A DNA stretch of 33,872 bases, from assembly GCA_947629165.1 (NCBI GenBank), contig CANRCR010000014.1, positions 1-33,872 of the forward strand. Direction: 5' to 3'. This DNA comes from an uncultured Bacilli bacterium (GTDB taxonomy: Bacteria > Bacillota_I > Bacilli_A > RF39 > UBA660). The position numbers were made by a program, and so were the translations under genes. The notes below the pieces were generated by a model. It saw only the letters and a list, made by a program, of their open reading frames with translations, made no database searches and had not been told where the DNA came from. The stretch's first letter is position 1. Each line of letters opens with the position of its first letter. Shown here piece by piece: positions 147 to 17,610 of this stretch.

Positions 147-2720
147 ATGCAGAACAACTTATACGAAGAATATAAAAAAGTTTCTAAGTTACCAAAAGAA
201 GAATTATTTCAAAAATACAAAACCTCAGAAAATGGGAAAAAAGAGCATGAGGTAAAAAAGATACAAGAAACAAATGGATTAAATATATACATTAAGGAAG
301 AAAAACATGGAGCTATCTATTTCTTTCTAATTTCATTAAAAGATCCCTTTATTTTAATCTTGTTTTTTCTAGCGATTATTAACTATATGATGGCAGATCA
401 TCTAGGTTCTATCATAATTGTCTTAATTGGTTTAATTAGTGCATTAATTAGGTTTTTTCAAGACTATTCAGAATATAAATTTAATCAAAAACTAAAATCA
501 AAAATATATTCTACTGCCAATGTAATTAGAAATTCCAAAGAAATAAATATCAAAACAGAACAAATTGTAATAGGTGATATTGTTACTCTAAACGCCGGAT
601 CTATTATTCCAGCAGATATGATTTTGATAGAAGCAAAAGATTTATTTATTAATGAATCTGTTTTTACAGGAGAATCAGTTCCTGTAGAAAAATATGTCAC
701 TTCTAATAAGGAAGAAAATATATTTGATATTGATAACATCTGTTTAATGGAATCCTCTGTCATTTCAGGATATGGAAAAGGAATAGTTATAAAAACAGGA
801 ACTGAGACCTATATTGGAACAATGGGAAAGGAATTAAGTAAAAAACATCAAGATACGAACTTTGATATCGGTATGAAAAATATTACTAAATTATTGTTAT
901 ATTATATGATTGGTACTGTATTTTTTATATTGATTGTAGATGGATTAATGAAAGGAAATTATCAGTCAGCAATTCTTTTTGCTCTATCGGTAGCAGTTGG
1001 GATTACTCCTTCTATGTTACCAATGATAGTAAATGTAAACATTGCAAAAGGAAGTAAAACGTTGGCTCAAAAAAAGACATTAGTAAAGAGAATGGAGGCT
1101 ATTCAAAATCTAGGATCTATGGATGTTTTGTGTACGGATAAAACGGGAACACTAACAGAAAATCAAATTGTATTGCAAAAGTATATCAATGTAATGGGAG
1201 AAGAAGATAAAACAATTTTAAAATATGTATATTTGAATAGTTATTTCTCAACGGGTATGAAAAATATTATTGATAAAGCAGTAATTGCTTATGCAAAAGA
1301 GAATAATGTTGAAAGTTTAAAAGATGATTTTACAAAAATAGATGAAATACCTTTCGATTATGCAAGAAAACTACAATCTGTTGTCGTAAAAAAAGGTCGA
1401 GATTATCGAATGTTTACAAAAGGTGCATTAGAAGAAATTTTAAAAATATGTACCAAAATAAACTATAAAGGAACAGAGAAAGTAATTACGGATGATTTAA
1501 AACAAAAGGTAATAAAGAAAGCCGAAGAATTAGAAAAGAATGGTATGCAAGTAATTGCTTTAGCAGAGAAAAAAACATACTCAGGTGAAAACATTTTTAA
1601 TACAGATGATGAAAAAGATATGATTTTTTTAGGCTTTGTAGGATTTTTAGCCCCTGCAAAGAAAGATGTAAAAGCCATTCTTACAAAATTAAAAAATCAT
1701 GGTGTGGAAATAAAAATTTTAACAGGAGATAATATAAATGCCACAACCGCTATCTGTAAAGAAGTTGGACTAGAAATAAAAAATATAATGTTAGGATCGG
1801 ATATTGATAAATACTCGGATGAAGAATTAGCTTTTATGGTAGAAAAAACCAATGTATATGCTAGATTAAACCCCCTTCAAAAAGAAAAAGTTGTAAAAAT
1901 ATTAAGAAAAAATTCACACGTAGTTGGTTTTATAGGAGATGGAGTAAACGATGCACCATCCCTTCATACTGCCGATGTAGGTATTTCTGTAGATGAAGCA
2001 ACAGATATTGCCAAAGAAGCAAGTGATATTATTCTTTTGAAAAAAAGTTTAGGGGTAATATATGATGGAATCATAGAAGGAAGAAAAGTATATGGAAATA
2101 TTATTAAATATATGAAAATGGCCTTATCAGGTGACTTTGGAGATGTATTTTCCATTATGATTGCCTCAATATTTTTACCATTTTTGCCATTGTTACCAAT
2201 TCAAATGTTATTTCAAGATTTTATTTATGATTTTTCACAAATTGGAATCCCATATGATAATGTAGATGAAGAATTTCTAAAGGAACCAAAAAAATGGAAT
2301 ACCAAAGGTATCTCTCGATTTATGATTGTCATGGGATTAACATCTTCTGTTATTGATACATTAGCTTTCATTATCTTTTGGTTTGTTTTAGGATATAATT
2401 CATTGAATCAACAAGCCTATTTTCAAACAGCATGGTTTGTGCTATGTCTATTAACAGAACTATTAGTAATTCATAATGTTAGGACAAGTAAAAGACCATT
2501 CATAGATTCGAAAGCATCGTCAATTTTAACAACCCTAACGCTCGTATCAGCAATATTGACAATCATAACACCTATCTTATTTGTTTCTATACCAACATTT
2601 GGATTTGCCATTTTACCAATAAAATTTTATATATGGGCACTAATTTTAATTACAATTTACGTGTTATTAGTAACCATCGTTAAAAAATTATATATAAAAA
2701 GATACAAAGAATGGTTATAA
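147..2720 (+). CDS. mgtA: Magnesium-translocating P-type ATPase (MgtA/MgtB family)
   Basis: Membrane P3-type ATPase of 857 residues, near family length, expected to import Mg2+ using ATP. Visible motifs are TGES in the actuator domain, the phosphorylation motif DKTGTLT (Asp331), TGD, and GDGVNDAP in the hinge. The segment LPIQMLFQDFIYDFSQIGIPYDNVD is cut here to its key parts: a Q-D-F-Y-D-S-Q pattern followed by IPYDNVD, characteristic of MgtA rather than Ca2+ or K+ pumps. About ten membrane helices are expected: two pairs before the catalytic loop and six after it. An upstream GTG at 138 is in frame, but GGTGAT at 137-142 looks like the ribosome site for ATG 147. The gene stands alone with its own promoter and terminator. 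No complete Mg2+ riboswitch is visible. Confidence 0.9.
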   Translation: MQNNLYEEYKKVSKLPKEELFQKYKTSENGKKEHEVKKIQETNGLNIYIKEEKHGAIYFFLISLKDPFILILFFLAIINYMMADHLGSIIIVLIGLISALIRFFQDYSEYKFNQKLKSKIYSTANVIRNSKEINIKTEQIVIGDIVTLNAGSIIPADMILIEAKDLFINESVFTGESVPVEKYVTSNKEENIFDIDNICLMESSVISGYGKGIVIKTGTETYIGTMGKELSKKHQDTNFDIGMKNITKLLLYYMIGTVFFILIVDGLMKGNYQSAILFALSVAVGITPSMLPMIVNVNIAKGSKTLAQKKTLVKRMEAIQNLGSMDVLCTDKTGTLTENQIVLQKYINVMGEEDKTILKYVYLNSYFSTGMKNIIDKAVIAYAKENNVESLKDDFTKIDEIPFDYARKLQSVVVKKGRDYRMFTKGALEEILKICTKINYKGTEKVITDDLKQKVIKKAEELEKNGMQVIALAEKKTYSGENIFNTDDEKDMIFLGFVGFLAPAKKDVKAILTKLKNHGVEIKILTGDNINATTAICKEVGLEIKNIMLGSDIDKYSDEELAFMVEKTNVYARLNPLQKEKVVKILRKNSHVVGFIGDGVNDAPSLHTADVGISVDEATDIAKEASDIILLKKSLGVIYDGIIEGRKVYGNIIKYMKMALSGDFGDVFSIMIASIFLPFLPLLPIQMLFQDFIYDFSQIGIPYDNVDEEFLKEPKKWNTKGISRFMIVMGLTSSVIDTLAFIIFWFVLGYNSLNQQAYFQTAWFVLCLLTELLVIHNVRTSKRPFIDSKASSILTTLTLVSAILTIITPILFVSIPTFGFAILPIKFYIWALILITIYVLLVTIVKKLYIKRYKEWL

Positions 2721-2767
2721 TAAAATAGGAAGATACGAAAACGAATTAGAAAGTTAAAAAAGTTGAT

Positions 2768-2798
2768 AAACAGACCATTTATATGGTTTGTTTTTTTT
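2768..2798 (+). terminator. Intrinsic terminator after the Mg2+ ATPase gene
   Basis: An 11-bp stem with one G-T pair (AAACAGACCAT with ATGGTTTGTTT, loop TTAT) runs into a T-tract. Confidence 0.85.
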
Positions 2799-2868
2799 GA
2801 TGCTATTTTGGTTTTAATAGATATTTTTGAATCAAAAAATATAGGCCACCAGTATTGAAGAATAGACT

Positions 2869-2894
2869 AAAAAAGCCTTCCTTACGAAGACTTT
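2869..2894 (-). terminator. Minus-strand terminator of the permease gene
   Basis: On the minus strand AAAAAGTCTTC pairs with GAAGGCTTTTTT around a 5-base loop, with one T-G pair. The stem overlaps the last codons and stop of the permease gene, and the T-run follows. Confidence 0.8.
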
Positions 2895-3670
2895 TTTTCA
2901 ATCCAATTGATTACATAGTACATAAGATACGATACAATGCCTAAGATAACGACCGAAGTAATGACTAAATTGATATTAAATACTTGTGAACCATACATAA
3001 TAAGATAACCTAATCCTTGTTTGGATACTAATAGTTCTCCCATGATGACCCCGATTAAAGACATACTAATATTAATCTTTAAAGCATTGATAATATTTAT
3101 TCGATTTCCAGGTAATACAAGTTTAAAAAAGATCTGTCTTTTACTGGCATGAAAACTCCGTAACAGTTTAATATAATCAGAATCCGTCTCGACAAAACCA
3201 TTATAGATATTGATAACCGTAATGAGTGCCGAAATCATTAAAGCCATGAAAATGATCGAATGGACACTTGCTCCTACCCAAATGATAATAAGCGGTCCTA
3301 AGGCTACTTTTGGTAATGAATTTAAGACGGTGAGATAAGGATCGAACACTTTTGCAAGAAATGGGAACCACCATAGCAAAGTAGCAATAATTAAACCAAT
3401 TCCTCCAGCAATCAAGAAACTGAGTAAAGTTTCATATACTGTTACCCAAATATGATTCCATAATTGATTCGTCTCGGCTAAATGAAATGCTGTTTGAAGA
3501 ACATCGAGGGGAGAAGAAAAGAGAAAAGTATTAATAAAGTGGAAATAGGCAAGTAGTTGCCAAATAATTAAAAATAAGACAATCAAGATAACTTGAGTAA
3601 AAATAATACCTCTTTTTCTTCTTTTTTCCTTCTTGAGAAAGTCGAGATGTTCTTTACTATAAGTGGACAT
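2882..3670 (-). CDS. ABC importer permease, NitT/TauT/SsuC/ThiX type
   Basis: Integral membrane subunit of 262 residues, the usual length for binding-protein-dependent permeases of the nitrate/taurine/thiamine-precursor group. The N-terminus is cytosolic and basic, TM1 is near residues 21-42, and about six helices are expected. The central segment LNSLPKVALGPLIIIWVG is the typical EAA-loop region that docks on the ATPase. Its start overlaps the end of the ATPase 3' fragment by 14 bases, so the operon order was binding protein, ATPase, permease. The inserted element now separates it from the operon promoter at 13111-13139. It could only be transcribed by read-through from the recombinase gene or from an unseen promoter. 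The substrate is unknown; related systems carry thiamine or pyrimidine precursors, sulfonates or nitrate. Confidence 0.85.
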   Translation of the reverse strand: MSTYSKEHLDFLKKEKRRKRGIIFTQVILIVLFLIIWQLLAYFHFINTFLFSSPLDVLQTAFHLAETNQLWNHIWVTVYETLLSFLIAGGIGLIIATLLWWFPFLAKVFDPYLTVLNSLPKVALGPLIIIWVGASVHSIIFMALMISALITVINIYNGFVETDSDYIKLLRSFHASKRQIFFKLVLPGNRINIINALKINISMSLIGVIMGELLVSKQGLGYLIMYGSQVFNINLVITSVVILGIVSYLMYYVINWIEKKSS

Positions 3671-3998
3671 CTAAATCCCTCCAAATCTGATCGTAATAAA
3701 CACTAAATTCAGGACATTTTCGATTGTGAATTGGAGTCGATTTATCTTTCATGGTAATTGTGTATTCCTTTTTCACCTGTGAAGGACGTTTACTTAGTAC
3801 GATAATTCGATCGGCCATGGATATTGCTTCTCCCAAATCGTGGGTTACCATGATGGCAGTTTTTCCTTCTTTTTTAATAATTTGATAAACATCGTCCGAT
3901 AAGGCAAGACGGGTCTGGTAATCCAAAGCAGAAAAAGCTTCGTCTAATAAAAGAATATCAGGATCTATAGCGAGTGTTCGGATAAGCGCAACTCCTTG
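3657..3998 (-). pseudogene. ABC importer ATPase, 3' fragment (split by the inserted element)
   Basis: Minus-strand reading from the element boundary gives GVALIRTLAIDPDILLLDEA, the tail of the ABC signature helix followed by Walker B (ILLLDEA). Then come the D-loop (SALD) and the switch histidine (VTHD), down to the stop. There is no Walker A and no proper start. A TTG or nearby codon could give about 89 residues, but not a working ATPase. The missing N-terminal half lies at 11671-12093. Joining them at the shared core gives one uninterrupted protein of about 249 residues, normal for SsuB/TauB-type ATPases. The gene was intact until the insertion. Excision would restore it. Confidence 0.92.
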
Positions 3999-4014
3999 AC
4001 AATACTATAGACAC
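3989..4014. repeat. Left attachment site (att core plus attP half-arm)
   Basis: The core CAACTCCTTGAC (3989-4000) differs at one base from the right core at 11676-11687. The element side (to 4014) read on the minus strand begins GTGTCTATAG, which matches the right arm GTGTCTTTAG in 9 of 10 bases. The side below 3989 is ATPase coding sequence. Confidence 0.75.
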
Positions 4015-5588
4015 GAATTAAAATTCCATTCGATTTGAACTGCTCTTGTCTGATGAATAGAATCAATTTTTCCAATATATATTTTAGAGATAAAGGTATC
4101 GACAATAACGTGATCTAATGTTTTAATCGAAGGAACGGAAAGATCTTTTTTAAATTTATTTTCTTTCTTTTGATAATCGGTAATGGTTTGTAATATACTT
4201 TTTAACTCCTCTTTAGTTCGTACTTCAACCGAATCGTAGATAGATGATAAAGAACGAAATTGTTCGAGCGTAATAGTTTCTTGCATACGATCTTCATATA
4301 AGTTTTTTAAATAGATTTGATTTTTCTCTAATGTCTGTTGTAATTTTTCTTTTTGCTTTTCTAAAAGTACTATTTTCTTTTGAAAAAAAGGAAGTTTTCT
4401 TTGTTGAACTAAAGTATTCCATGCTTCGATATCGAAATAATCTTTAATTTTTTTTTGAATTTCTTCTAAAATAATCTTTTCTAATTGATCATAACGAATA
4501 GAAGATTTATTGATACATATATCATAACCATTCTGATTACTAGAACATACGAGATAAGAATGAAGTGAAGAATCTTTCTTACGCATGGAATGATGACATT
4601 CAAGACAAAAAACTTTTCCTGAAAAAAGATGCACCTTTCCTGTCTTTTTAATAGACCTCGTCCGTTCTTTTTGAAGTGCTTGCACTTTTTTAAAAGTAAT
4701 TTCATCGATAATTGCTTCATGTGTATGTAAAACTTTAATCCATTCCTTTTTATCTTTTCTTTTAATTTTATGATTTTTATAACTTAAAGTAGTTCTTTTT
4801 CCTTGAATAAGATTACCGATATATAACTCATTTGAAAGAATGGTTTTAATGGCATTAGAAGACCATTTAATAGCTGTTCTAGGACGATTACTTTGGATAT
4901 TTAACTTCGAACCTTGTTGATATTTGTAAAGGGATGGAGAAGGTACGTGATGTTCATTTAAATAATTGGCAATTCCTGTATAACCGAGACCCGATAGATA
5001 TAAATGAAATATTTTTTGAACCATTTTGGAAGCGATAGGATCAACTACTAATTGATTGTTATTGGTACTAGATACAAGATAACCGTATGATGCAAAAGGA
5101 GAAATAAATTCTCCCTGTTTCATTTTGGCTTGAAAAGCACTTCGTATATTGTTAGATACATCCTCTAAATACCATTCATTTACTAATCCATTAATTTGTC
5201 TTGCTTTCTTATTTCCACGATTTTCTGTGTCTGCGTGATCAGCAAGACTAATAAAACGAACATTCCATTCGATAAATTTGTTGTGAAGATATTTTTCAAT
5301 TATTTCCATATCTCTTGAAAAACGAGATTGACTTTTGCACAGTACAACATCGATTTTTCCTTGAGAACAATCTTTAATTAATCGTTCAAATTGAGGGCGA
5401 TAAGTACCTGCCCCCGATAAATCTTCGTCACAGTATTCGTCATACAAAACAAATTCGGGATGTCTACTAATTTCTTCGAGGAGTAGATGCCTTTGATTCT
5501 TAATAGATTCACTATCTTCCCATGTTTGCAATTTATCGTGATCTTCATTGGATAATCGTAAATAAATACCGACATTTAATTGTTTCAT
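4005..5588 (-). CDS. Large serine recombinase (site-specific integrase)
   Basis: DNA integrase of 527 residues, expected to cut and rejoin att sites through a 5'-phosphoserine intermediate. The resolvase catalytic domain covers about residues 4-150. It has GIYLRLS with the likely nucleophile Ser13 and the arginine-rich catalytic strand QSRFSRD. A Recombinase domain follows (about 165-290), then a zinc ribbon with Cys pairs CLEC and CSSN...C (about 325-360), then a coiled coil (about 395-470) of the kind that controls integration against excision. The size and domain order match TnpX/TndX-type and phage large serine integrases. A ribosome site GAAGGGATG precedes ATG 5588, and a 34-codon ORF ends 12 bases upstream in the same operon. 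The gene appears complete. No separate directionality factor is recognisable. Confidence 0.93.
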   Translation of the reverse strand: MKQLNVGIYLRLSNEDHDKLQTWEDSESIKNQRHLLLEEISRHPEFVLYDEYCDEDLSGAGTYRPQFERLIKDCSQGKIDVVLCKSQSRFSRDMEIIEKYLHNKFIEWNVRFISLADHADTENRGNKKARQINGLVNEWYLEDVSNNIRSAFQAKMKQGEFISPFASYGYLVSSTNNNQLVVDPIASKMVQKIFHLYLSGLGYTGIANYLNEHHVPSPSLYKYQQGSKLNIQSNRPRTAIKWSSNAIKTILSNELYIGNLIQGKRTTLSYKNHKIKRKDKKEWIKVLHTHEAIIDEITFKKVQALQKERTRSIKKTGKVHLFSGKVFCLECHHSMRKKDSSLHSYLVCSSNQNGYDICINKSSIRYDQLEKIILEEIQKKIKDYFDIEAWNTLVQQRKLPFFQKKIVLLEKQKEKLQQTLEKNQIYLKNLYEDRMQETITLEQFRSLSSIYDSVEVRTKEELKSILQTITDYQKKENKFKKDLSVPSIKTLDHVIVDTFISKIYIGKIDSIHQTRAVQIEWNFNSCL

Positions 5589-5600
5589 AACATCCCTTCT

Positions 5601-5705
5601 TTATAGATTAAATTCCATAATATGATATAGCTTCGTAGTAATTATTTTTTTGAGGTTCGAAGAAGAAAGAGAAGAATCAATTATTTCAGAAATTAAATAA
5701 CGCAT
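5601..5705 (-). CDS. 34-residue small ORF ahead of the recombinase
   Basis: A short frame starts MRYLISEIID, followed by a serine-rich stretch, and ends in MEFNL. It has a strong ribosome site (AAAGGAGA, 7 bases before ATG 5705). It stops 12 bases before the recombinase start, so the two are very likely co-transcribed. The peptide has no signal sequence or membrane helix and no family I recognise. Its position suits a leader peptide, a translational coupler or a small recombination-direction factor; none of these is proven. The good ribosome site is the main reason to list it. Confidence 0.5.
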   Translation of the reverse strand: MRYLISEIIDSSLSSSNLKKIITTKLYHIMEFNL

Positions 5706-5820
5706 TTTTAATCTCCTTTCTATTTTTGTTATTCGATAAATTTTATGATAAAAAGGTTTCAAAATATGATTTTTGGTTTTTTGGAATGTACACTAAAATA
5801 TGTAAATGAACCATAAATCC

Positions 5821-5849
5821 TTGACGGGGGGGGTAATTTTCTGTAAAAT
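5821..5849 (+). promoter_or_regulatory. Fibre operon promoter with a G8 tract in its spacer
   Basis: A -35 box TTGACG (5821-5826) and a -10 box TAAAAT (5844-5849) are separated by exactly 17 bases. The run of eight G (5826-5833) overlaps the last base of the -35 box and fills the first part of the spacer. The start of transcription would fall near 5856, giving a leader of about 18 bases. A homopolymer in this position can gain or lose bases and so change promoter strength. As written, the spacing is optimal (ON). Confidence 0.75.
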
Positions 5850-5873
5850 GATATGTAAGATAGGGTGGAGTAG

Positions 5874-6485
5874 ATGCAGGAAAATAAAGAGAAAAAGAAG
5901 ATAGGGATTGGAACTGTAGTAAAAGGAATCGTGCTAACAATAACCCTTTTAATCTTTATTGTGGCTGGAACAATCTTAATCGAAGCAAATATGAATCCAG
6001 ATAAAATACCGGATATATTTGGATATAAACCGATGATTGTTTTGTCAGGGTCGATGGAAAGTTCTATTTATGCAGGTGATTTAGCATTTGTTAAAGAAGT
6101 AGACACTACCTCTTTAAAAGAAAACGACATTATTGCCTTTCGAAATGAAACCAATACGGTTACTACGCACCGTATTGTAGAAATTGTATATGAAGATGGC
6201 AAACAGTATTTTAGAACCAAAGGTGATAACAACAATGCCAATGATATTAATTTGGTAGAAATGGATAAAGTCGAAGGAATTTATACGGGTAGAATTCCTA
6301 AGTTAGGAAATTTTCTAATCTTTTTACAACAACCTATTGGACTAGCCGTTGTCTTACTAATTATATTAGTAATTGGTTTAGGATGTTTATATTTTATGAA
6401 TCGTAAAGAAAGTAAAAAAGAACGAGAAGAATTTGAAGAATATAAGCGAATGAAAGAACAACAAGGAAAAAATCAAGAAGAATAA
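5874..6485 (+). CDS. ER-type (SipW-like) signal peptidase I, first copy
   Basis: Membrane protease of 203 residues that should remove signal peptides from the operon's exported subunits. TM1 is near residues 14-36. The catalytic Ser is in LSGSMESS and the catalytic His in TTHRIVE, replacing the lysine of ordinary bacterial enzymes; this Ser-His arrangement defines the SipW/archaeal/ER class. KGDNN supplies the conserved Asp. TM2 (about 157-177) precedes a highly charged cytosolic tail (RKESKKEREEFEEY...). A second, shorter enzyme of the same type lies at 9222-9725. It is the first gene of the operon, directly after the phase-variation candidate promoter, with ribosome site GGGTGGAG. Confidence 0.9.
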   Translation: MQENKEKKKIGIGTVVKGIVLTITLLIFIVAGTILIEANMNPDKIPDIFGYKPMIVLSGSMESSIYAGDLAFVKEVDTTSLKENDIIAFRNETNTVTTHRIVEIVYEDGKQYFRTKGDNNNANDINLVEMDKVEGIYTGRIPKLGNFLIFLQQPIGLAVVLLIILVIGLGCLYFMNRKESKKEREEFEEYKRMKEQQGKNQEE

Positions 6486-6491
6486 ATAAGG

Positions 6492-6521
6492 TTATATTTA
6501 GCAGAGTAATGCTTTATATAA
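6492..6521 (+). promoter_or_regulatory. Hairpin before the major subunit gene
   Basis: TTATATTTAGCA pairs with TGCTTTATATAA (two mismatched bases in the middle, 6-base loop). No T-run follows, so it is not a terminator. It may mark an mRNA processing or stabilising site. Confidence 0.4.
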
Positions 6522-6562
6522 AATAGAAAATGTTTGAAAAACAATAAGAAGGAGGTGAATTG

Positions 6563-7189
6563 ATGAATAATAAAACAGTTAAGACTTTAATGGTAGTAGC
6601 AATGTTGTTTACTCTTTCACTATATTTTATTGGTGGAACGTATGCACGATATATTGGTGAATATACTGGAAATGCGACTGCTTCTGTAGCAAAATGGAAA
6701 GTGCAATTAAATGGTAAAAGTGCTGAAGAAACCAGTATGGATTTAACGTTTACACCGACCAAAAGTGAATATGTAGTCGATGGAAAAATCGCCCCTGGAT
6801 CATCTTCGACAGCAGAAGTTAAACTTGATTTAGATGGAACAGAAGTTGCAGTAGACGTAATTGCTGAAGTAACCGAATCAACTTTACAAGAAAAACTAAC
6901 GGAATTAGGATTAACAAGCTCTGAAATAAAATTTAAATCAGAATTTGTTGGAGGAGGACAAGCATCTTCAAGTGAGGGAAACGGATCAAAAGAGAATCCA
7001 TACGTTGTAAAATTACCAAGCAATCAAGCATTTAGCACGGAGGATACGATTACTATAAAACTTACACTTGAATGGGGTAACGACGAAGCACATAATAGCG
7101 AAGATACCAAAGCTGGTAAAAATGCAGAGACTTTAGGTGAAATAAGTGTTCCAGTTAAGTTAACAGTTAGACAACATATTGATGAATAA
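6563..7189 (+). CDS. TasA/camelysin-like exported subunit, probable main fibre protein
   Basis: Exported protein of 208 residues. The N-terminus is basic, then hydrophobic (about 8-26), ending GGTYARYIGEYTG; the [A/S][R/K]Y motif just after the hydrophobic core is shared by the SipW-type proteins of this operon. The rest is a predicted beta-rich domain with VVDGKIAPGSSS (about residues 70-81), a motif repeated in the 7281-8114 product, as expected of TasA/CalY-type domains. No sortase motif is present. The ribosome site AAGGAGGTG is the best in the operon and sets ATG 6563 rather than TTG 6560. The gene is flanked by mRNA hairpins on both sides. These points suggest the most abundant subunit, which is inference. 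Confidence 0.75.
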   Translation: MNNKTVKTLMVVAMLFTLSLYFIGGTYARYIGEYTGNATASVAKWKVQLNGKSAEETSMDLTFTPTKSEYVVDGKIAPGSSSTAEVKLDLDGTEVAVDVIAEVTESTLQEKLTELGLTSSEIKFKSEFVGGGQASSSEGNGSKENPYVVKLPSNQAFSTEDTITIKLTLEWGNDEAHNSEDTKAGKNAETLGEISVPVKLTVRQHIDE

Positions 7190-7201
7190 AAAACGGGAAG
7201 T

Positions 7202-7259
7202 GTTAAAACTCCCCTTTAAGCGTATAAAAGAGGGTATATGTTTAAAAGGGTGTTTTAAC
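7202..7259 (+). promoter_or_regulatory. Long intercistronic hairpin after the main subunit gene
   Basis: GTTAAAACTCCCCTTTAA (7202-7219) and TTAAAAGGGTGTTTTAAC (7242-7259) can pair over about 18 bp with two mismatches, around a 22-base loop. No T-run follows. It could protect the upstream message from 3' decay, attenuate transcription or set the ratio of subunits. Confidence 0.6.
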
Positions 7260-7280
7260 GGATAAAAAGGAAGTGATACG

Positions 7281-8114
7281 ATGGAAAATGAAAAAGAAAC
7301 CACACGAGAAAAAAAAGAAAAGAAAACCATACTACTATTTTTAATATTAGTTGCTTTAATTATTATTATATTTCTATTGATAAGATGTATGGGGGTAATT
7401 GACCACCGGACACTTATTCCAACCGGAAATGTGGATGTTTTTGATATTATTTTTGGAAATGATAAATGTGATACCAATTGTAATTGTAACTGCAATTGTC
7501 CAACCTGCCCAACGTGTCCTACCAATCCAAGTGAAGAACCAGGAAGTATCCCAAGCAATCCTTCAACAGGAGGAACAATAACAGAAAATCCTAGTACGGG
7601 AGGACCTTCTACAGGTGAAGAAAATAAACCAACTCCAAGTCCTACACCGAGTCCTTCACCACCACCGACACCACCGGAAGAACAAGAAGATTTCTTAGTT
7701 TACGATAAAGATAAAATGTACTCGAAAGATACACCATTAAATATCTTCACCCAGACATCTTATTATGTAGCCGATGGAAAAATTGCTCCAGCAAGTGAAA
7801 ATTCATATCAATTTGTAATTCGAAATAATAATGATTTTAACGTGCAATACAGTTTGACACTCAAAGAGACGAACGAGCATAATATCAAGATGCGTTATCG
7901 TCTCAAAGTAGATGGAGAATATATTGCCGGAAGCGAAAATGAATATGTAACTTTTGATCAATTGAATCAAACAAATATTGAACTAGCCAGTCGTAATCAT
8001 AAGGTTTATACACTCGACTGGAAATGGGTAGAAAGTGATAACGATACAGAAGTGGGATCAAATATTGAGGCAAATTATCAATTAGCCTTAGAAATAACAG
8101 CTTCTGCAGAATAA
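7281..8114 (+). CDS. Membrane-anchored protein with Cys-rich segment, Pro-rich stalk and TasA-like domain
   Basis: A 277-residue protein with a cytosolic charged start (KKEKK), one uncleaved membrane helix (about 17-34) and an outside C-terminus. Seven cysteines lie at residues 63-79 in a CNCNCNCPTCPTC pattern. A Ser/Thr/Pro-rich stalk follows (about 81-137), then a beta-rich domain (about 140-277) containing VADGKIAPAS, the same motif as in the main subunit. The layout suggests a cell-surface base or anchor that holds the fibre across the peptidoglycan, with the cysteines for disulfides or metal binding. Both roles are inferred. It lacks the [A/S][R/K]Y signal motif of its neighbours, so it is probably not cleaved by the SipW-like enzymes. 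The ribosome site is AAGGAAGTGAT. Confidence 0.65.
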   Translation: MENEKETTREKKEKKTILLFLILVALIIIIFLLIRCMGVIDHRTLIPTGNVDVFDIIFGNDKCDTNCNCNCNCPTCPTCPTNPSEEPGSIPSNPSTGGTITENPSTGGPSTGEENKPTPSPTPSPSPPPTPPEEQEDFLVYDKDKMYSKDTPLNIFTQTSYYVADGKIAPASENSYQFVIRNNNDFNVQYSLTLKETNEHNIKMRYRLKVDGEYIAGSENEYVTFDQLNQTNIELASRNHKVYTLDWKWVESDNDTEVGSNIEANYQLALEITASAE

Positions 8115-8130
8115 AGGGGTTGTTAATAAA

Positions 8131-8700
8131 ATGCCCAAATTAAAATTAAAGAAAAAATATCGTAATTTCTTATTGGTATATGTCGTCATGAGTGCTTTAA
8201 TGTTTACAAATTATACCTTTTCGAGATACATCGTAAGTACCGATCGAGAAGGGATTATGCAAGTGGCTAAATTTAATGTAAAAGTAAACAATATAGACGT
8301 TGTAGTAGGAGAAGCTTTTGATTTAACATTAAACCCAACTACGACGACGACCGATAATAAAATGGCACCGGATTCCGAAGGCTATTTTGAAATAGAAATA
8401 GATCCAACTGCTACCGAAGTTAGTTTGGAATATCAATTTGTCTTTGATTTAAGTGCCTTAGATGAAGATGTGAAATTAACCGATGTGAAAGTAAATGATC
8501 AAGTAGTAACTTCTTCCGTTACCGATAATACGGTGACAGGAGATTTATTACTTCCGAGCACGGGTAAAGGATTTACCGAACAAGATAAAATAAATATAAA
8601 AGTAGGATGGACTTGGCAAGAAGCCGAGGATACCATCAATCCAGAAATTACGAGTGACCATATTAAAGTATCTGCAACCATAAGACAAAAAATAGATTAA
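8131..8700 (+). CDS. TasA-like exported subunit, probable minor fibre protein
   Basis: A 189-residue exported protein. The start is strongly basic (KLKLKKKYR), followed by a hydrophobic stretch (about 12-29) ending TFSRYIVSTD, the SipW-type motif. The remaining part is acidic, Thr- and Val-rich and predicted to be beta strands. It contains DNKMAPDSEG, a variant of the DGKIAP[G/A]S motif of the two genes before it. There is no sortase motif, no lipobox and no cysteine-rich part. The gene lies 16 bases after the previous one with ribosome site AAGGGG. By position it may be a minor, adaptor or nucleation subunit; this is inference. Confidence 0.65.
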   Translation: MPKLKLKKKYRNFLLVYVVMSALMFTNYTFSRYIVSTDREGIMQVAKFNVKVNNIDVVVGEAFDLTLNPTTTTTDNKMAPDSEGYFEIEIDPTATEVSLEYQFVFDLSALDEDVKLTDVKVNDQVVTSSVTDNTVTGDLLLPSTGKGFTEQDKINIKVGWTWQEAEDTINPEITSDHIKVSATIRQKID

Positions 8701-8716
8701 AACGAAAGGAGATATT

Positions 8717-9220
8717 ATGAACAAGAACACGAAAATATTTGTATTCGTTTCTTTTGTTAGTATTTTATTTCTTTATACGTTCAACTACACCTCTAGCCGT
8801 TATTTAGGACAAGTGGATGCCGATAAAAATGTAGTTGCAGTTCCCATACTGGATTTAAGTAATAATGGAACTTCTTATGAATTGAAAAATATTTTACCAG
8901 GGTATGAAGAAACAAAAGAATTTGAAGTTTCAAATACCATCGATGCACAAGTAAATGAAATCCTATTAAGTTATTACTTTCAAGTTACTATCGATTCTGA
9001 AATTCCCTTAAATGTAAAATTATATAATGAACAAGGAGAAGAAATACCTATAAATGAAGGAAAAACAGAAGAAGAACAGATGGAAGAAGGAATCGAAGTA
9101 ACAAAAAAATATAAAATAACGATTTCTTGGGATAAAAGTAAAAACAGTTATGAGTATGCAGGATTACCTGCTTCTGTAAAAGTAGATTTAATTGCTACGC
9201 AAGTAGTAGAAGGATCTTAG
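8717..9220 (+). CDS. SipW-type exported protein, small accessory subunit
   Basis: A 167-residue protein with a hydrophobic N-terminal segment (about 7-23) ending TSSRYLGQVDAD, again the SipW-type motif. The remainder is predicted to be beta-rich, with NNGTSYELKNILPGYEETKEF near residues 49-70 in two adjoining strands. It is a more distant relative of the other subunits and lacks the DGKIAP motif. The stop is one base before the start of the second signal peptidase, so the two genes are translationally coupled. The ribosome site is AAAGGAGA. The role is unknown beyond likely fibre assembly or capping. Confidence 0.6.
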   Translation: MNKNTKIFVFVSFVSILFLYTFNYTSSRYLGQVDADKNVVAVPILDLSNNGTSYELKNILPGYEETKEFEVSNTIDAQVNEILLSYYFQVTIDSEIPLNVKLYNEQGEEIPINEGKTEEEQMEEGIEVTKKYKITISWDKSKNSYEYAGLPASVKVDLIATQVVEGS

Positions 9221-9221
9221 A

Positions 9222-9725
9222 ATGAAACTCATAAAAAAAATAGCTAAGATATTGTTTTGGATAATTTTAGTATTTACGACGCTTTATAGTACTTTTATTA
9301 TTATTCAAAAACTATTTTGGAAAGATAAAACGCCAACTTTTATGGGATATAAGAATTTTATTGTTTTAACAGGGAGTATGAATCCAACCATAAACGAAGG
9401 GGATATTGTTATTGTAAAAGCGGAAGCGGATATTCAAAAAGGGGATATTATTGCTTTTAAAGCACAAAACTCAATTGTTACTCATCGCGTTGTCGAAATA
9501 AAAAAAGAAGCAGATAAAGATTTTTATATTACAAAAGGAGATGCTAATTCGAGTACCGATATCGAATTGATAAGTAAAGAAGATATCGAAGGAAAATATT
9601 GTTTTAAAATTCCTATTTTAGGAAATATAATTTTATTTTTCCAAAAACCGATTGGAGCAGTAGTTTTATTTTTAATATTAGGGACACTTTTATTATTAAG
9701 TTTAAAACCAGAAAAAAATAATTAA
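9222..9725 (+). CDS. ER-type (SipW-like) signal peptidase I, second copy
   Basis: A 167-residue membrane protease. TM1 is near residues 9-29. The catalytic Ser lies in LTGSMNPT, the catalytic His in VTHRVVE, and KGDANSSTD supplies the conserved acid. TM2 is near residues 143-163. It lacks the long charged tail of the 5874-6485 copy. The spacing and surroundings of the Ser, His and Asp motifs match, so the two enzymes are paralogues. It lies between the accessory subunit and the large adhesin-like gene, which suggests it may serve one of those rather than the main subunit. That division of labour is a guess. Confidence 0.9.
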   Translation: MKLIKKIAKILFWIILVFTTLYSTFIIIQKLFWKDKTPTFMGYKNFIVLTGSMNPTINEGDIVIVKAEADIQKGDIIAFKAQNSIVTHRVVEIKKEADKDFYITKGDANSSTDIELISKEDIEGKYCFKIPILGNIILFFQKPIGAVVLFLILGTLLLLSLKPEKNN

Positions 9726-9743
9726 GAGAAGGAAGTGATGAAT

Positions 9744-11633
9744 TTGAAAAAGAAACAATCAATTATATTTTTGATAGTCGTTTTAGCTACAATTGCTTTG
9801 GCAGTAACTTGTGGCAAAACCTATGCGAAATATATTTTAACGAAACATTTTGATACAGCATTTTCATCCTATCCTTTCTATTTTGAAGTAGAAGACATAA
9901 CGAGCAAGCGAATTAAGGCCGATATGGCCGAACCAGATCAAGTTGTCAGTTTGAATATAAAAAACTACCTTGAAGATCAAGTGAATGCCTTTGATACCAA
10001 ATATATAATTTCGTTAGAAGAAAATGAAATGTTTACCTTAGATCATCCAATAGAAGGAACAATTAGTGCTTCGGAAAAAGGAAAAACAGTAACTTTAAAT
10101 TTAAAGTTAAAGCAAGATTTTACACAAACAGGTGGAAGTATTACTTTTGTGATCAATACAACAGAACCATATACAAAAGAGATTAAAGTAGTAGTACCTG
10201 TAAATAGATTAGGCGATTATGTGACGGAACTTGCTAATGATAAAACTTGCACTTTTGGGAACGAAGAGCTCCCGCTTGTTGTAACTGATTTCCAATGTGA
10301 TATGGAAGGATATAAAGATACTATACCACCTTATCACAAATATTTAGTAGGAACTGATAAATGTCTTGATTTTAATTATGTTTGGTATTCAGGTTATATG
10401 TGGAGAATAACAGAAATATTAAATGATGGATCGGTGAAAATGATTACCGAAAATGTTGTGTCGGCTGTAAATTTTGGTGAAACTGGATTCTTTGATAACT
10501 CATATATAAAACAATGGTTAAATGAAGATTTTTTAGATACTTTAAATAATTATGACGATATATTGGTAACAGATGCTACTTGGGATATATCACATTGGTA
10601 TTCTTGGTGCTATGTTGCTCCGCCTCATCAAATAAAAGCCCCCGTTGGTTTATTAAATTCTTACGAATTTAACAAGACTGCCAGTTATGGTAAAGATAGT
10701 TTTTTAAATCTTGGACATAATTGGTGGTTCTCATCACCTATTGATTCCGAAAGCGATAGTTCTACAGCTGCTGCTGGAATGAGCATATATGGAGCATTGA
10801 CAGGATGGAAAGTGCCAAGTACCGCTTATGGAGTTCGACCTGTGGTAGTTTTAAAAGCCGATGTTAAATTTAGTGGTGAAGGAACAAAAGAGCAACCCTT
10901 TGTTTTATTAGACGATATAGAAAAGGCTCAATCTGGGGATCTAATAAATACAAGAACTCCAGGAGAACTTGTTGAAATTAATAATATGTTATATCGGATA
11001 GTAAATATTCATGACCAAAATGGCCAAACTGTAACTAAATTAAAAAGTGCTAATTATGTCACAGATGAAAAGGGTGTTTTTTTGACCAAACCATTTGGTG
11101 ATATGATAATGAAAACTTATAAAGAGATTGTTGATTCAGGAAAAGAAGAATATTGGGGAGCATATTTAAATGGATCATGGCTTGAACAACAAGATATAAA
11201 AAAATATTTAGTTCAAGATACATATTATGTAGCACCTGCTCAAGTTAAACCTGAAGATGGAAGTAATATTGGTAGTTATAAAAATACTATATGTAAAGAC
11301 ATAAATACAACTGAAACGACTAAAGCTTGTGAAAAGACAGATAAGACTTGGACAGGATATGTTGGACTTCCGATTGTTGGTGAATTATTTGCTTATCCAT
11401 TAGGGGGAAGTGATACAGTTGATCATCTGACTGCTACAATGACTCCATATGGTAATGATAGCTACCCAATGATTGGAGCATTTGTGCCAGGCTCTCAAGG
11501 TATAGATCAATACACTCATGATTCGCTTTTTGCAGTAAAGCCATGTATTACTTTAAAAGAAGAAGTCATTATAACAGGTGGAGATGGGAAAACACCTGAG
11601 ACCGCATTCAAAATTGCTTTACCAGGAGAATAA
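9744..11633 (+). CDS. Large SipW-type surface protein with two DUF6273-like domains, probable fibre tip or adhesin
   Basis: Exported protein of 629 residues. The signal is hydrophobic (about 6-23) and ends KTYAKYIL. A beta-rich TasA-like region follows (about 30-170). Two related domains then end in matching segments: VRPVVVLKADVKFSGEGTKEQPF near residue 370 and VKPCITLKEEVIITGGDGKTPETAF at the C-terminus. These are shown only as key stretches: [V]-[RK]-P, then LK, then a G-rich turn. The first domain carries WYSGYMWRI and YIKQWLNEDFL, like DUF6273 domains of surface proteins in gut Bacillota. The start is TTG 9744, because AAGGAAGTGAT is correctly spaced from it and too close to ATG 9738. 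It is the last and largest gene before the terminator. A tip adhesin role is inferred. Confidence 0.65.
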   Translation: MKKKQSIIFLIVVLATIALAVTCGKTYAKYILTKHFDTAFSSYPFYFEVEDITSKRIKADMAEPDQVVSLNIKNYLEDQVNAFDTKYIISLEENEMFTLDHPIEGTISASEKGKTVTLNLKLKQDFTQTGGSITFVINTTEPYTKEIKVVVPVNRLGDYVTELANDKTCTFGNEELPLVVTDFQCDMEGYKDTIPPYHKYLVGTDKCLDFNYVWYSGYMWRITEILNDGSVKMITENVVSAVNFGETGFFDNSYIKQWLNEDFLDTLNNYDDILVTDATWDISHWYSWCYVAPPHQIKAPVGLLNSYEFNKTASYGKDSFLNLGHNWWFSSPIDSESDSSTAAAGMSIYGALTGWKVPSTAYGVRPVVVLKADVKFSGEGTKEQPFVLLDDIEKAQSGDLINTRTPGELVEINNMLYRIVNIHDQNGQTVTKLKSANYVTDEKGVFLTKPFGDMIMKTYKEIVDSGKEEYWGAYLNGSWLEQQDIKKYLVQDTYYVAPAQVKPEDGSNIGSYKNTICKDINTTETTKACEKTDKTWTGYVGLPIVGELFAYPLGGSDTVDHLTATMTPYGNDSYPMIGAFVPGSQGIDQYTHDSLFAVKPCITLKEEVIITGGDGKTPETAFKIALPGE

Positions 11634-11655
11634 AAAGCCATAATTGGCTTTTTTT
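11632..11655. terminator. Bidirectional terminator at the right end of the element
   Basis: AAAAAGCCA pairs with TGGCTTTTT around TAAT, with T-runs in both reading directions. It ends the fibre operon on the plus strand. On the minus strand it ends the message of the binding protein and truncated ATPase, and so cuts off the permease gene. Confidence 0.85.
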
Positions 11656-11687
11656 GTGTCTTTAGGAGATTCAACCAACTCTTTGAC
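11656..11687. repeat. Right attachment site (attP half-arm plus att core)
   Basis: GTGTCTTTAGGAGATTCAAC runs into the core CAACTCTTTGAC (11676-11687). The core matches the left core in 11 of 12 bases, and the arm mirrors the left arm. Bases beyond 11687 are ATPase coding sequence. Confidence 0.75.
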
Positions 11688-12093
11688 GCATACCTCCGGA
11701 TAGAGCACTTGGATACTTATGAATAAAATCTTTTAAACCGTAGGTTTCAAGAAGATTAAGAACTCTCTTTTTCGTTTCTTCGTTTAGATTGTGATTTACT
11801 TCGAGTCCTAAATAACAGTTTTCGAGAATGGTACGCCAAGGAAAGAGTGAATCTTTTTGTAACATATAACCAATTTTTAAATGATCTTTTCCAAACTGAA
11901 TCGTTCCAGAAGAAGCGGTATCAAGTCCAGTTAAAATAGATAACAAAGTCGATTTACCACATCCCGAAGGACCGACAATGGCAACGAATTCTTTGTCTTT
12001 TACTTCGAGATTGATATCTTTAATAGCCGTGATTTCATCGGTTTTATCATGATAGTTTTTAGTCAAATGTTGAATGGTTAAAATAGGTTTCAT
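11671..12093 (-). pseudogene. ABC importer ATPase, 5' fragment (split by the inserted element)
   Basis: N-terminal 139 residues of a SsuB/TauB-type ATPase: Walker A GPSGCGKST (41-49), Q-loop YMLQKDSLFPW and the ABC signature SGGMRQRV. The element then supplies a Gly codon and a TGA stop. Walker B, D-loop and switch His are on the other fragment at 3657-3998. The product would bind but not hydrolyse ATP. The start ATG overlaps the binding protein stop by four bases (ATGA), showing translational coupling in the original operon. The frame up to the junction is undamaged, which suggests a recent or reversible insertion. Confidence 0.92.
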
Positions 12094-13082
12094 GCATTCA
12101 CTTGATACATTAATTTTTCAAATGGAACTTTTTCTTTCAATTCGTTGGATGCTATCATGATATCTTGTAAATGATCGAAGGATTCTTTCGTAAAAGTAGT
12201 AGTGGTTGGCCAACTGTCTGCTTCCCGGTAACGTTTTACAGCATCGATTAAATCTTCCTTAGAAGTATCTGGAAAGAAATCGATGATGGCACTAGCTATT
12301 TCGATATCGGTATGACTGTGAACGTAGTCGAGTCCTTTTTGAATTGCTCTTTCAAATTTTTGAATCGTTTCGGGATGAGCTTCAATATAACTGATACGAG
12401 CACTGTAAGAAGTGTAAGGAACGACACCTCCTAAATTACCAATCGATGCTACCACATGACCATATCCCTGTTGTTCAATTTGTAAAGCGTTCGGTTCAAA
12501 CAAAGTGACAAAGTCGCCTTGACCACCGATGAAAGCACCACTCATTGCTGCAAAAGCAACCGAGGTATCAATATTCACATCATTTTTAGGGTCGATACCA
12601 TTTTGACGTAGTGCCCATTCAAAAGTCATTTCAGGCATGCCGCCTTGGCGTCCTCCAATAATCGTTTTTCCTTTGAGATCATCGAGTGTAAATGATTCGT
12701 AGGCCTCTCTTGATACAAGAAAAGTACCATCGCGTTGGGTAAGTTGTGCAAACGTTTTAAGATAATCTTCTTCGCCACCATTGTAGACATAAATAGTCGC
12801 TTCACTTCCACAAAATCCGATATCGACATCGCCCGATAATACACTGGCAGTAACTTTATCGGCTCCAGAAGCAAGGGTAAGCTCTACATCTAATCCTTCT
12901 TCCTCAAAGTAATTTTGACTAAAAGCCACATATTGAGGGGCATAGAAAATCGTATGAGCTACTTCAGCTAAACGAACTTTTTCTAAAGATGTCGTCTTAT
13001 CTTTATTTAAATCAAGAAAAAACAAGGATGCAAGAACGATTAAAAGAAAAAGAGCGACAAGTCCAATTAAAGTCTTTTTCAA
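12090..13082 (-). CDS. ABC importer substrate-binding protein, NMT1/ThiY-like
   Basis: Extracytoplasmic binding protein of 330 residues. The N-terminal hydrophobic segment (about 4-24) has no lipobox cysteine, so it is probably held by an uncleaved membrane anchor. The motif FYAPQYVAFSQNYFEEEGLDVEL and the later DVDIGFCGSEA and GGRQGGMPEM are typical of NMT1/THI5-like periplasmic-binding folds, which include thiamine or pyrimidine precursor binders and the Bacillus YtlA type. The start is TTG, set by GGAGG seven bases upstream. It heads the importer operon that the element interrupts. It can still be made, but no complete transporter can be built from this locus. The ligand is not identifiable here. 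Confidence 0.85.
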   Translation of the reverse strand: MKKTLIGLVALFLLIVLASLFFLDLNKDKTTSLEKVRLAEVAHTIFYAPQYVAFSQNYFEEEGLDVELTLASGADKVTASVLSGDVDIGFCGSEATIYVYNGGEEDYLKTFAQLTQRDGTFLVSREAYESFTLDDLKGKTIIGGRQGGMPEMTFEWALRQNGIDPKNDVNIDTSVAFAAMSGAFIGGQGDFVTLFEPNALQIEQQGYGHVVASIGNLGGVVPYTSYSARISYIEAHPETIQKFERAIQKGLDYVHSHTDIEIASAIIDFFPDTSKEDLIDAVKRYREADSWPTTTTFTKESFDHLQDIMIASNELKEKVPFEKLMYQVNA

Positions 13083-13110
13083 ACTAATTCCTCCTTTTTC
13101 GTTACAATGT

Positions 13111-13139
13111 ATTATATGAAGATAAATAAATTAGGTCAC
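13111..13139 (-). promoter_or_regulatory. Promoter of the importer operon
   Basis: On the minus strand GTGACC (13134-13139) and TATAAT (13111-13116) are 17 bases apart, about 30 bases before the TTG start. Confidence 0.6.
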
Positions 13140-13171
13140 AGAAAGAATGGATAGAAGAAAATAAAAAAACA

Positions 13172-13186
13172 TGCTATACTTATAAT
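13172..13186 (+). promoter_or_regulatory. Promoter of the amidase gene
   Basis: TGCTATACT (13172-13180) is an extended -10 element, with a second TATAAT directly after it (13181-13186). Because the ATG at 13185 falls inside this box, the downstream ATG at 13212 is preferred as start. Confidence 0.5.
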
Positions 13187-13211
13187 GAAATTTAATGATG
13201 GAGAAGTGCGT

Positions 13212-14360
13212 ATGAAAAAGAAGCAAAGAAAAAGACGGCGACTTATTTTTCTTTTAGTAGGAGTAATCCTTTTAGTATTTTTAATTATGCAACTGCTACC
13301 AAAAGAAAATAAAGAAGAATCGGCACCGGTTAATTCAAATTGGGAAGAAGATTTACGCTCGACAACAAACTATGTCGAAGAAATGACTTGGGAAGAAAAT
13401 GGAATAGAAGTGAAGGGAATTTTTCCAAAAGATGAAACGGGAAAGTTAAAGATTTGTTCTACGACCAAGAAAAAGTGTCAAGAGGTAGAAACGAATCACG
13501 CCAAGAAGAATGAATTTGTAGGGACCTTTGATTTAGCATCTTTACCGAACGATTACTACGAACTTTATATAGCTGAAGAGAAATTAACAGATACGAGACC
13601 GACGGTCGATCGAATAAACCGGGCGCATATTAAAGATAAATTAGTAACCATGGATTATTCCAACGATCGAATCAAAGTGAAAATAGAAGATTTCAAATAC
13701 GAATATGATATTTTAATTGATCCAGGTCACGGAGGAGATGATATTGGTTCCTTTAATGACTATACGGATGAAAAAAAGTTAAACTTAGAACAGGCGCTTT
13801 ATGAAAAGAAACGGTATGAAGAACATGGACTAACAGTGAAATTGATTCGGGAAGACCAAAGTTACGGTATTATGATGGGGGATAGTTCGTGGACTAAAGC
13901 ACGCCAACGTGGTTATGCGATGGGTTATTACGGTGTTGTTTCAAGAGCCTCTTACAGCAATCATCATAATAGTTCCCTAGCCAAAAGTTATTCCGGATGG
14001 GAAATTATTGTTCCCGGAGAATACGAAGATTTAACCAATGAAAAAAAAGTTTCCAAACTTTGGGAAGAACATTATAAAGTAAGAGATAGTCATTTACGTT
14101 TCTATGCCCGAAATGACGATGGAGAACTTTTCTCAAGAGCAAACGATGAAATATATCATTTTACAGATTACTATGCAGTTATTCGTATTCCGTATCAATT
14201 ATTTCATACTAAAAACACCTTGTACGAAGGATGTTATTTAAGTAATACGCTCGATTATGACTGGTATTATAATAAAGGAAATTGGAAGACCTTGAGCGAA
14301 GATAAAATTAAAACTTACGTCGAATATTTAGGAAAGACGTATATACCACCGAAAAGTTAG
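13212..14360 (+). CDS. Membrane-anchored N-acetylmuramoyl-L-alanine amidase (Amidase_3)
   Basis: A cell-wall hydrolase of 382 residues that should cleave the amide bond between muramic acid and the peptide stem. The start is very basic (KKKQRKRRR), with a membrane helix at about 11-28 and the catalytic part outside. Zinc ligands typical of Amidase_3 are visible: His173 in DPGHGG, a Glu in LNLEQ, and a His in SNHHNSS. The C-terminal Glu in YEGCYLSN is the likely catalytic residue. A linker domain (about 40-165) lies between anchor and catalytic domain. I choose ATG 13212, with GGAGAAG before it, over ATG 13185, which sits in the -10 box. It forms a single-gene unit with its own terminator. Confidence 0.82.
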   Translation: MKKKQRKRRRLIFLLVGVILLVFLIMQLLPKENKEESAPVNSNWEEDLRSTTNYVEEMTWEENGIEVKGIFPKDETGKLKICSTTKKKCQEVETNHAKKNEFVGTFDLASLPNDYYELYIAEEKLTDTRPTVDRINRAHIKDKLVTMDYSNDRIKVKIEDFKYEYDILIDPGHGGDDIGSFNDYTDEKKLNLEQALYEKKRYEEHGLTVKLIREDQSYGIMMGDSSWTKARQRGYAMGYYGVVSRASYSNHHNSSLAKSYSGWEIIVPGEYEDLTNEKKVSKLWEEHYKVRDSHLRFYARNDDGELFSRANDEIYHFTDYYAVIRIPYQLFHTKNTLYEGCYLSNTLDYDWYYNKGNWKTLSEDKIKTYVEYLGKTYIPPKS

Positions 14361-17072: not shown

Positions 17073-17546
17073 ATGTTAAAAATGATTATTGTTCATGGAC
17101 CTAATCCGATGGATGGTGTCGACATGGAAGGAAAATGTACCTTTCTTACAGTCGAAAAAGAAGAACAACATATTGTAACGTTAATTGGTTTTTTAAAAGA
17201 TCACTATAAAAATGATCCGAACTTACAACAATTAAAATATACCCATCCCATTCAAACCGCGAGTTATGTATTTACACGTTTAGGAGATGCGGTTTTTCTA
17301 GATACTTCGAAACCGAACCGAAAGCAAGGAACTTTTATGATGCCGGAATCAATGACTGAAAAACAAACCCAAGCCTTTTTATCCTTAAAAAATACGCTTC
17401 ACGATTACCAAGATTTAAGAATCGATTACGATATCATCTACGATCAAGGATTCTTTGATGCCAAAACATTACAAGGACAAGGACTAGAGGCTACTAAAGT
17501 ACTTGCTACTTATGTCGAAAAAAGAGCCAAAAACAATCAAAAATAA
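17073..17546 (+). CDS. Unknown cytosolic protein, 157 residues, behind a structured leader
   Basis: A soluble mixed alpha/beta protein with no signal, membrane helix or obvious catalytic motif. Notable stretches are IIVHGPNPMDGVD at the start and FMMPESMTEKQTQAFLSLKN in the middle, a helix cap followed by a helix. I do not recognise the family. The start ATG 17073 has AAAGGA about 10 bases upstream; a second ATG at 17082 is possible. The stop lies within a strong terminator, so the gene is monocistronic. Its translation may be controlled by the alternative hairpins of its leader. Confidence 0.65.
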   Translation: MLKMIIVHGPNPMDGVDMEGKCTFLTVEKEEQHIVTLIGFLKDHYKNDPNLQQLKYTHPIQTASYVFTRLGDAVFLDTSKPNRKQGTFMMPESMTEKQTQAFLSLKNTLHDYQDLRIDYDIIYDQGFFDAKTLQGQGLEATKVLATYVEKRAKNNQK

Positions 17547-17571
17547 CGATTTTAAAATCGTTATTTTTTTT
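17541..17571 (+). terminator. Terminator before pcrA
   Basis: AATAACGATTTT and AAAATCGTTATT form a perfect inverted repeat that runs into eight T. Confidence 0.9.
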
Positions 17572-17580
17572 GAAAAGTCC

Positions 17581-17610
17581 TTGGGCTCGAAGATGTTTCT
17601 ATTGTATAAT
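17581..17610 (+). promoter_or_regulatory. Promoter of the pcrA-ligA gene group
   Basis: TTGGGC (17581-17586) and TATAAT (17605-17610) with an 18-base spacer, 33 bases before ATG 17644. It probably drives the closely spaced genes from pcrA to ligA. Confidence 0.6.

Follow-up and report, generated by a model that had tools for sequence, protein, structure and literature searches.

A poly-G tract in the promoter spacer of a putative fibre operon on a mobile element: a probable slippage switch in an uncultured Bacilli bacterium

Does the run of eight G that separates the promoter boxes at positions 5821-5849 act as a switch for the seven-gene operon that follows it? The run lies in a contig of 33,872 nucleotides (the window) from an uncultured Bacilli bacterium. 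Promoters that switch by slippage are known chiefly from pathogens. An initial annotation of the window had proposed a phase-variable promoter at this site, and our comparisons support that reading: a paralogous and an orthologous promoter with nine G, tract lengths of 7-10 in congeners, exported proteins as targets and an inverton at the same place in relatives. We consider it very probable that slippage in the G8 run makes this sigma-A promoter phase-variable and so switches a putative surface-fibre operon of seven genes.

The promoter layout can be read directly from the sequence as TTGACGGGGGGGG TAATTTTCTG TAAAAT. The initial annotation had described TTGACG, eight G starting in its last base, a spacer of 17 nt and TAAAAT at 5821-5849, and each of these elements is exact. 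The promoter and its immediate surroundings consist of the following features:

5821-5826, + strand: −35 hexamer TTGACG, matching the consensus in 5 of 6 positions; TTGAC is invariant in five aligned promoters
5826-5833, + strand: G8 tract, the proposed slippage site, seen in the sequence; G9 in the paralogue in the same genome and in the orthologue in congener G002
5844-5849, + strand: −10 hexamer TAAAAT, with a 17-nt spacer from the −35 hexamer
5862-5870, + strand: likely ribosome-binding site AGGGTGGAG, proposed from the sequence

The −35 hexamer ends with the first G of the tract, the spacer covers 5827-5843, and exactly 10 nt lie between the end of the tract and the −10 box. The start codon of a SipW-type signal peptidase gene follows at 5874, 24 nt 3′ of the −10 box. 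Like promoters of the porA and tp0126 type, the site holds a homopolymeric G tract inside the −35/−10 spacer. It does not have the build of an inverton, that is, flanking inverted repeats together with a site-specific invertase: no inverted repeats flanking the promoter were found in the window, and the locus is without a tyrosine recombinase. A search of 2700-13300 against Rfam gave no matches.

The initial annotation had called a G8 run rare in so AT-rich a genome. The window contains one G8 run against 0.22 expected, and 18 of 100 shuffled sequences contain at least one, so the count by itself is not significant. The unusual feature is the position directly after TTGAC, as TTGACG followed by six further G never occurs in the shuffles. 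It is this absence, and not the G8 alone, that speaks against a chance origin of the motif. Throughout the 1.086-Mb assembly of the genome of the window (G000) there are just three runs of at least seven G: the G8 in the window, a G9 on contig C7 in the promoter of a second SipW operon, and a G8 in a coding sequence. The last of these (contig C3, ~67522-67529, L037) lies near codon 17 of a gene for a von Willebrand-like surface protein and is a possible translational contingency locus.

The operon downstream of the promoter encodes two SipW-type signal peptidases and five proteins predicted to be exported:

5874-6485, + strand: first operon gene, for a SipW/archaeal-type signal peptidase I; TIGR02228 at 101.8 bits, above cut-off
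6563-7189, + strand: exported subunit 1, with an N-terminal hydrophobic segment and a conserved GGTYARY motif
7281-8114, + strand: exported proline-rich protein, syntenic in G002, G026 and G111
8131-8700, + strand: exported subunit, syntenic in G002 and G026
8717-9220, + strand: exported subunit, weakly camelysin/TasA-like; PF12389 at E=0.007, below cut-off, and TasA (5of1/8aur) at E ~0.2
9222-9725, + strand: second SipW/archaeal-type signal peptidase; TIGR02228 at 122.5 bits, above cut-off
9735-11633, + strand: final operon gene, for a large exported protein; a weak DUF6273 match, below cut-off, and N-terminal homologues in C7, G002 and G026

The product of the first gene also matches the SipW equivalog model (E=3e-35), below the cut-off of that model. 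Subunit 1 shows 42-45% identity in three relatives (alignment A2); its predicted AlphaFold structure, of low confidence at a pLDDT of 62, does not confirm a TasA-like fold, and a fold search of the PDB gives the TasA fibre as a weak match. The exported proteins are probably TasA/camelysin-like, with similarities below cut-off. It is from this sub-threshold similarity that a fibre nature of the subunits is proposed. Export of the products is predicted, their exposure on the surface is presumed here, and they may form fibres.

The same promoter design recurs elsewhere in this genome and in its congeners (G001-G004). On C7 (within 17510-17591) the promoter reads TTGAC-G9-TACTTTTTTA-TACAAT, with a spacer of 18 nt, and lies ~24 nt before a gene resembling 8717-9220, which is followed by a SipW-type peptidase gene and then by a gene for a large protein. 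The window and C7 promoters are 73% identical over 81 nt. Congener G002 has a complete seven-gene operon in the same order at another chromosomal place, adjoining an LCP-type gene; its first six genes are 41-69% identical to those of the window, and the match of the last one is confined to the N-terminal part. The promoter of this operon is TTGAC-G9-TCGAATTTTG-TAGAAT. The distance from the tract to the −10 box is 10 nt in the window, C7 and G002 alike, which implies that a G8 tract gives a 17-nt spacer and a G9 tract an 18-nt spacer. A constant length of eight G among relatives, which the initial annotation had named as grounds for refuting the switch, is therefore not what is observed.

An unbiased search for runs of at least seven G in the four congeners, tallied together with G000, shows how closely such tracts are tied to promoters: 83 of the 88 runs in G000-G003 start 0-2 nt after TTGAC, and all but one of these 83 are followed 15-20 nt further on by a TATAAT-like box. 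Genomes G001-G003 contain 16-40 such tract promoters each, whereas G004 (73% complete) contains none, which counts against the proposed switch. The tracts consist of seven (one case), eight, nine (the majority) or ten G, with near-identical flanks in paralogous copies. The genes downstream encode secreted or membrane-anchored proteins, many with the sequence GVSFAFFTYSRQGTTTNTISTG. An N-terminal hydrophobic segment, indicative of export or membrane insertion, follows 38 of 39 tested tract promoters, compared to 57 of 98 in the background.

In the wider family, TTGAC followed by at least six G occurs in 13 of 290 genomes, 11 of which have promoter-like sites of at least eight G. Genome G209 has 21 copies with near-constant flanks, those read having 9-11 G, and G302 has five copies with 9-12 G, again with near-constant flanks. 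Tract length differs between homologous or paralogous copies: G8 against G9 for the window, 7-10 in the congeners and 9-12 in G209 and G302. Differences in G count between near-identical paralogous promoters are the footprint expected of slipped-strand switching and support this interpretation. Two further family matches (L061 and L062) were discarded because their G runs lie in a ribosome-binding site beside the start codon. G008, G107, G121 and G085 have further sets of repeated poly-G sites, in which another constant box precedes the tract, for example TAAATC-G8-TACTTTTAATAAGATATAA in more than 20 copies in G008. A pattern scan of GTDB genomes gave, among the matches listed, sites in Clostridia, Bacilli, Spirochaetes, Kiritimatiellota and Mesoplasma; of these listed matches, those in low-GC genomes are often 5′ of lipoprotein or secreted-protein genes, and those in high-GC genomes include many chance occurrences. 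Promoter-like sites of the form TTGAC-G13 to G17-TANNNT are found in Mesoplasma photuris (L179) and in Spirochaetes (L102, L126, L189), several of them preceding lipoprotein or secreted-protein genes. Viral contigs were considered as a source of same-strain copies, and the only match to the upstream flank was a chance match to unrelated sequence. In the open literature, for which journal coverage was partial, we found no description of comparable poly-G promoters from these bacteria.

The fibre operon and its switch are cargo of a 7.69-kb large-serine-recombinase element that splits an ABC-ATPase gene, a setting absent from the initial annotation. The element extends over ~3989-11676 and contains a divergent large serine recombinase gene and the fibre operon. 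Its boundaries are marked by the following features:

3657-3998, − strand: C-terminal half of the ABC ATPase gene, resuming with VALIRTLAIDPD at 3989-4000
3989-4000: left att core CAACTCCTTGAC, from junction comparison
4005-5588, − strand: gene for a large serine recombinase (domains Resolvase, Recombinase and Zn-ribbon), transcribed away from the operon
11671-12093, − strand: N-terminal half of the ABC-transporter ATPase gene, ending with LSGGMRQRV at 11676-11687
11676-11687: right att core CAACTCTTTGAC, from junction comparison

Both junctions share a 12-nt core, CAACTC(C/T)TTGAC, and the ABC ATPase gene is unsplit in congeners G001 and G002, which represent the empty site. A recombinase at the end of the segment, a split target gene, a short att repeat and an empty site in relatives together identify an integrative element. 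The nearest named model for the recombinase is XisF (E=4e-29, below cut-off). By analogy with intervening elements of the skin and fdxN type, excision would restore the ABC ATPase gene. Some 40 of 386 family genomes contain a relative of the recombinase, at 55-76% identity. Most of the 30 loci examined have ABC-ATPase fragments nearby, usually broken at the same codons, 137-140. By these insertions the site-specific element is widespread in the family, and the fibre operon is one of its cargoes. Minimal elements of ~2.8-3.5 kb in G074 and G112 (L305, L310) carry little beyond the serine recombinase and occupy the same ABC-ATPase codons. The element in G010 appears from its translations to have relaxase- and replication-type genes.

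Two relatives, G026 and G111, have a different structure in the same place. In both, a syntenic SipW operon again has the serine recombinase as its neighbour (76% identity in G026, 60% in G111), and there is no G tract between the two. A segment of ~1.38 kb takes the place of the tract. It has its own tyrosine recombinase gene together with inverted repeats that match perfectly (24 and 21 bp), the combination that defines an inverton:

L082, 1341-2716, and L266/L289 (G026, G111): invertible segments, in opposite orientations

The two segments are 74% identical end to end and oppositely oriented relative to the operon, which is comparative evidence for inversion. One end of the segment has a promoter-like TATAAT/TACAAT, which in G111 faces the operon and in G026 faces the other way. 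The presence of an invertible segment on the same operon is an independent argument that the operon is phase-variable.

How the window promoter would switch can be outlined from its spacing. Slipped-strand mispairing would alter the number of G and thereby the −35/−10 distance, as in porA and tp0126. In Treponema pallidum tp0126 the poly-G lies between −35 and −10, and the promoter is most active at 17 nt (PMC7864442). Under this rule the window promoter, with eight G and an optimal spacing of 17 nt, is probably ON in the assembled sequence, and the C7 and G002 copies would be weaker. Tracts of seven G (16 nt) and nine G (18 nt) would give weaker promoters and longer tracts would be OFF, leaving the population mixed for fibre display as a result of tract switching. 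Promoter activity, slippage in living cells and the ON and OFF lengths are what we infer from the sequence.

The poly-G could instead be built into a promoter class as a constant structural component, for example as a regulator site or as A-form DNA that tunes the spacer, in which case a constant length would be selected and there would be no on/off switching. One class, TTGACNT-G9-TAGTTTTATAAT, fits this idea in that exactly nine G are present in 29 of 35 copies in G001 and 17 of 22 in G003. Nine G at a 16-nt spacing in most copies of a class could mean a favoured fixed length. Some G002 classes moreover retain non-optimal spacers: the large class TTGACT-G9-N11-TATAAT has 19-20 nt, beyond the textbook range. 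Either a different spacing rule applies to these promoters or most copies are OFF; shortening of poly-G DNA in the A-form is another possible explanation. A fixed tract is nevertheless hard to reconcile with the variation in length, both in the congeners and elsewhere, on otherwise near-identical copies. Long G runs are also intrinsically unstable, the targets are exported proteins, and relatives control the same operon by an invertible switch. We therefore consider a fixed tract unlikely.

We give far less weight to two other explanations. Transcription of the operon might start from a promoter that lies farther 5′ or within the recombinase region, with the G-tract match being accidental. Promoter-like matches to sigma-70 are indeed no more common in the wider region than in shuffles (32 compared to 33.8), but 5821-5849 is the sole + strand match (10/12) in the intergenic region 5589-5873, the paralogous and orthologous operons have the same design about as far from their start, and TTGACG with six further G is missing from the shuffles, so that a start elsewhere is highly improbable. 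It is just as improbable that inversion or excision by a recombinase is the switch at the window locus and the G run incidental. A recombinase does adjoin the promoter, G026 and G111 have their invertible segment at this very place, and excision of the element could change expression. Against this, inverted repeats are lacking around the window promoter, the att sites of this serine recombinase family lie in the ABC ATPase gene and not at the promoter, and the tract promoters of C7 and G002 exist without a serine recombinase.

With slippage in the G8 tract as the preferred reading for the window, we also favour, with less assurance, a wider picture. It combines a mobile fibre element carrying interchangeable switches between serine recombinase and operon (poly-G in one lineage, a tyrosine-recombinase inverton in two others) with a regulon in the congeners, where each genome would use 16-40 poly-G spacer promoters to control exported, fibre-like proteins. 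What is newest in this picture is the exchange between kinds of switch on a single operon; the slippage mechanism itself is of a known kind. The switch gains interest from its spread through the genus, from being carried on a mobile fibre element and from its replacement by an inverton in relatives. The design recurs across a family of uncultured Bacilli with reduced genomes, at up to ~40 loci per genome and almost always for exported proteins, and a genome-wide phase-variable surface regulon thereby becomes predictable from assembled metagenomes. If the same operon is truly under two unrelated switch types, random on/off display of fibres would itself be under selection.

The locus can be compared to several known systems. 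The tapA-sipW-tasA and sipW-calY operons of Bacillus share with it a SipW-type peptidase and small exported proteins, whereas the window has two such peptidases and five other exported proteins whose camelysin/TasA similarity is below cut-off. To our knowledge, these Bacillus fibre operons are controlled by regulators and are not known to switch by slippage. Invertons of gut bacteria likewise place a phase switch before surface structures, and in G026 and G111 one precedes this very operon, but the window locus is without their inverted repeats and tyrosine recombinase and would switch by slippage. In Bordetella fim, a C stretch lies between the activator sites and −10. In Neisseria opc, a C tract overlaps the −35, as outlined in PMC7864442. 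Homopolymer length modulates transcription of a surface structure in both, and neither has a pure spacer tract as in the window. The analogy to opc drawn in the initial annotation is therefore looser than that to porA, which fits exactly. In porA of Neisseria meningitidis, as outlined in the same source, a poly-G lies between −10 and −35 and the spacing sets promoter strength (PMC7864442). A G tract in the −35/−10 spacer of a surface-protein promoter is common to porA and the window; the phylum and the product differ, the window tract starts with the final −35 base, and its operon encodes SipW-type peptidases and exported proteins and is carried on an integrative element. In T. pallidum, tp0126 resembles the window in its spacer tract, for which 17 nt is optimal; poly-G tracts, also of the tpr genes, stand at many loci of the genome and vary in vivo, those of tprL between 7 and 11 G (PMC7864442). 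The T. pallidum products are outer-membrane proteins of a spirochaete, and in tprL the transcription start lies just after the tract, a geometry other than that of the window.
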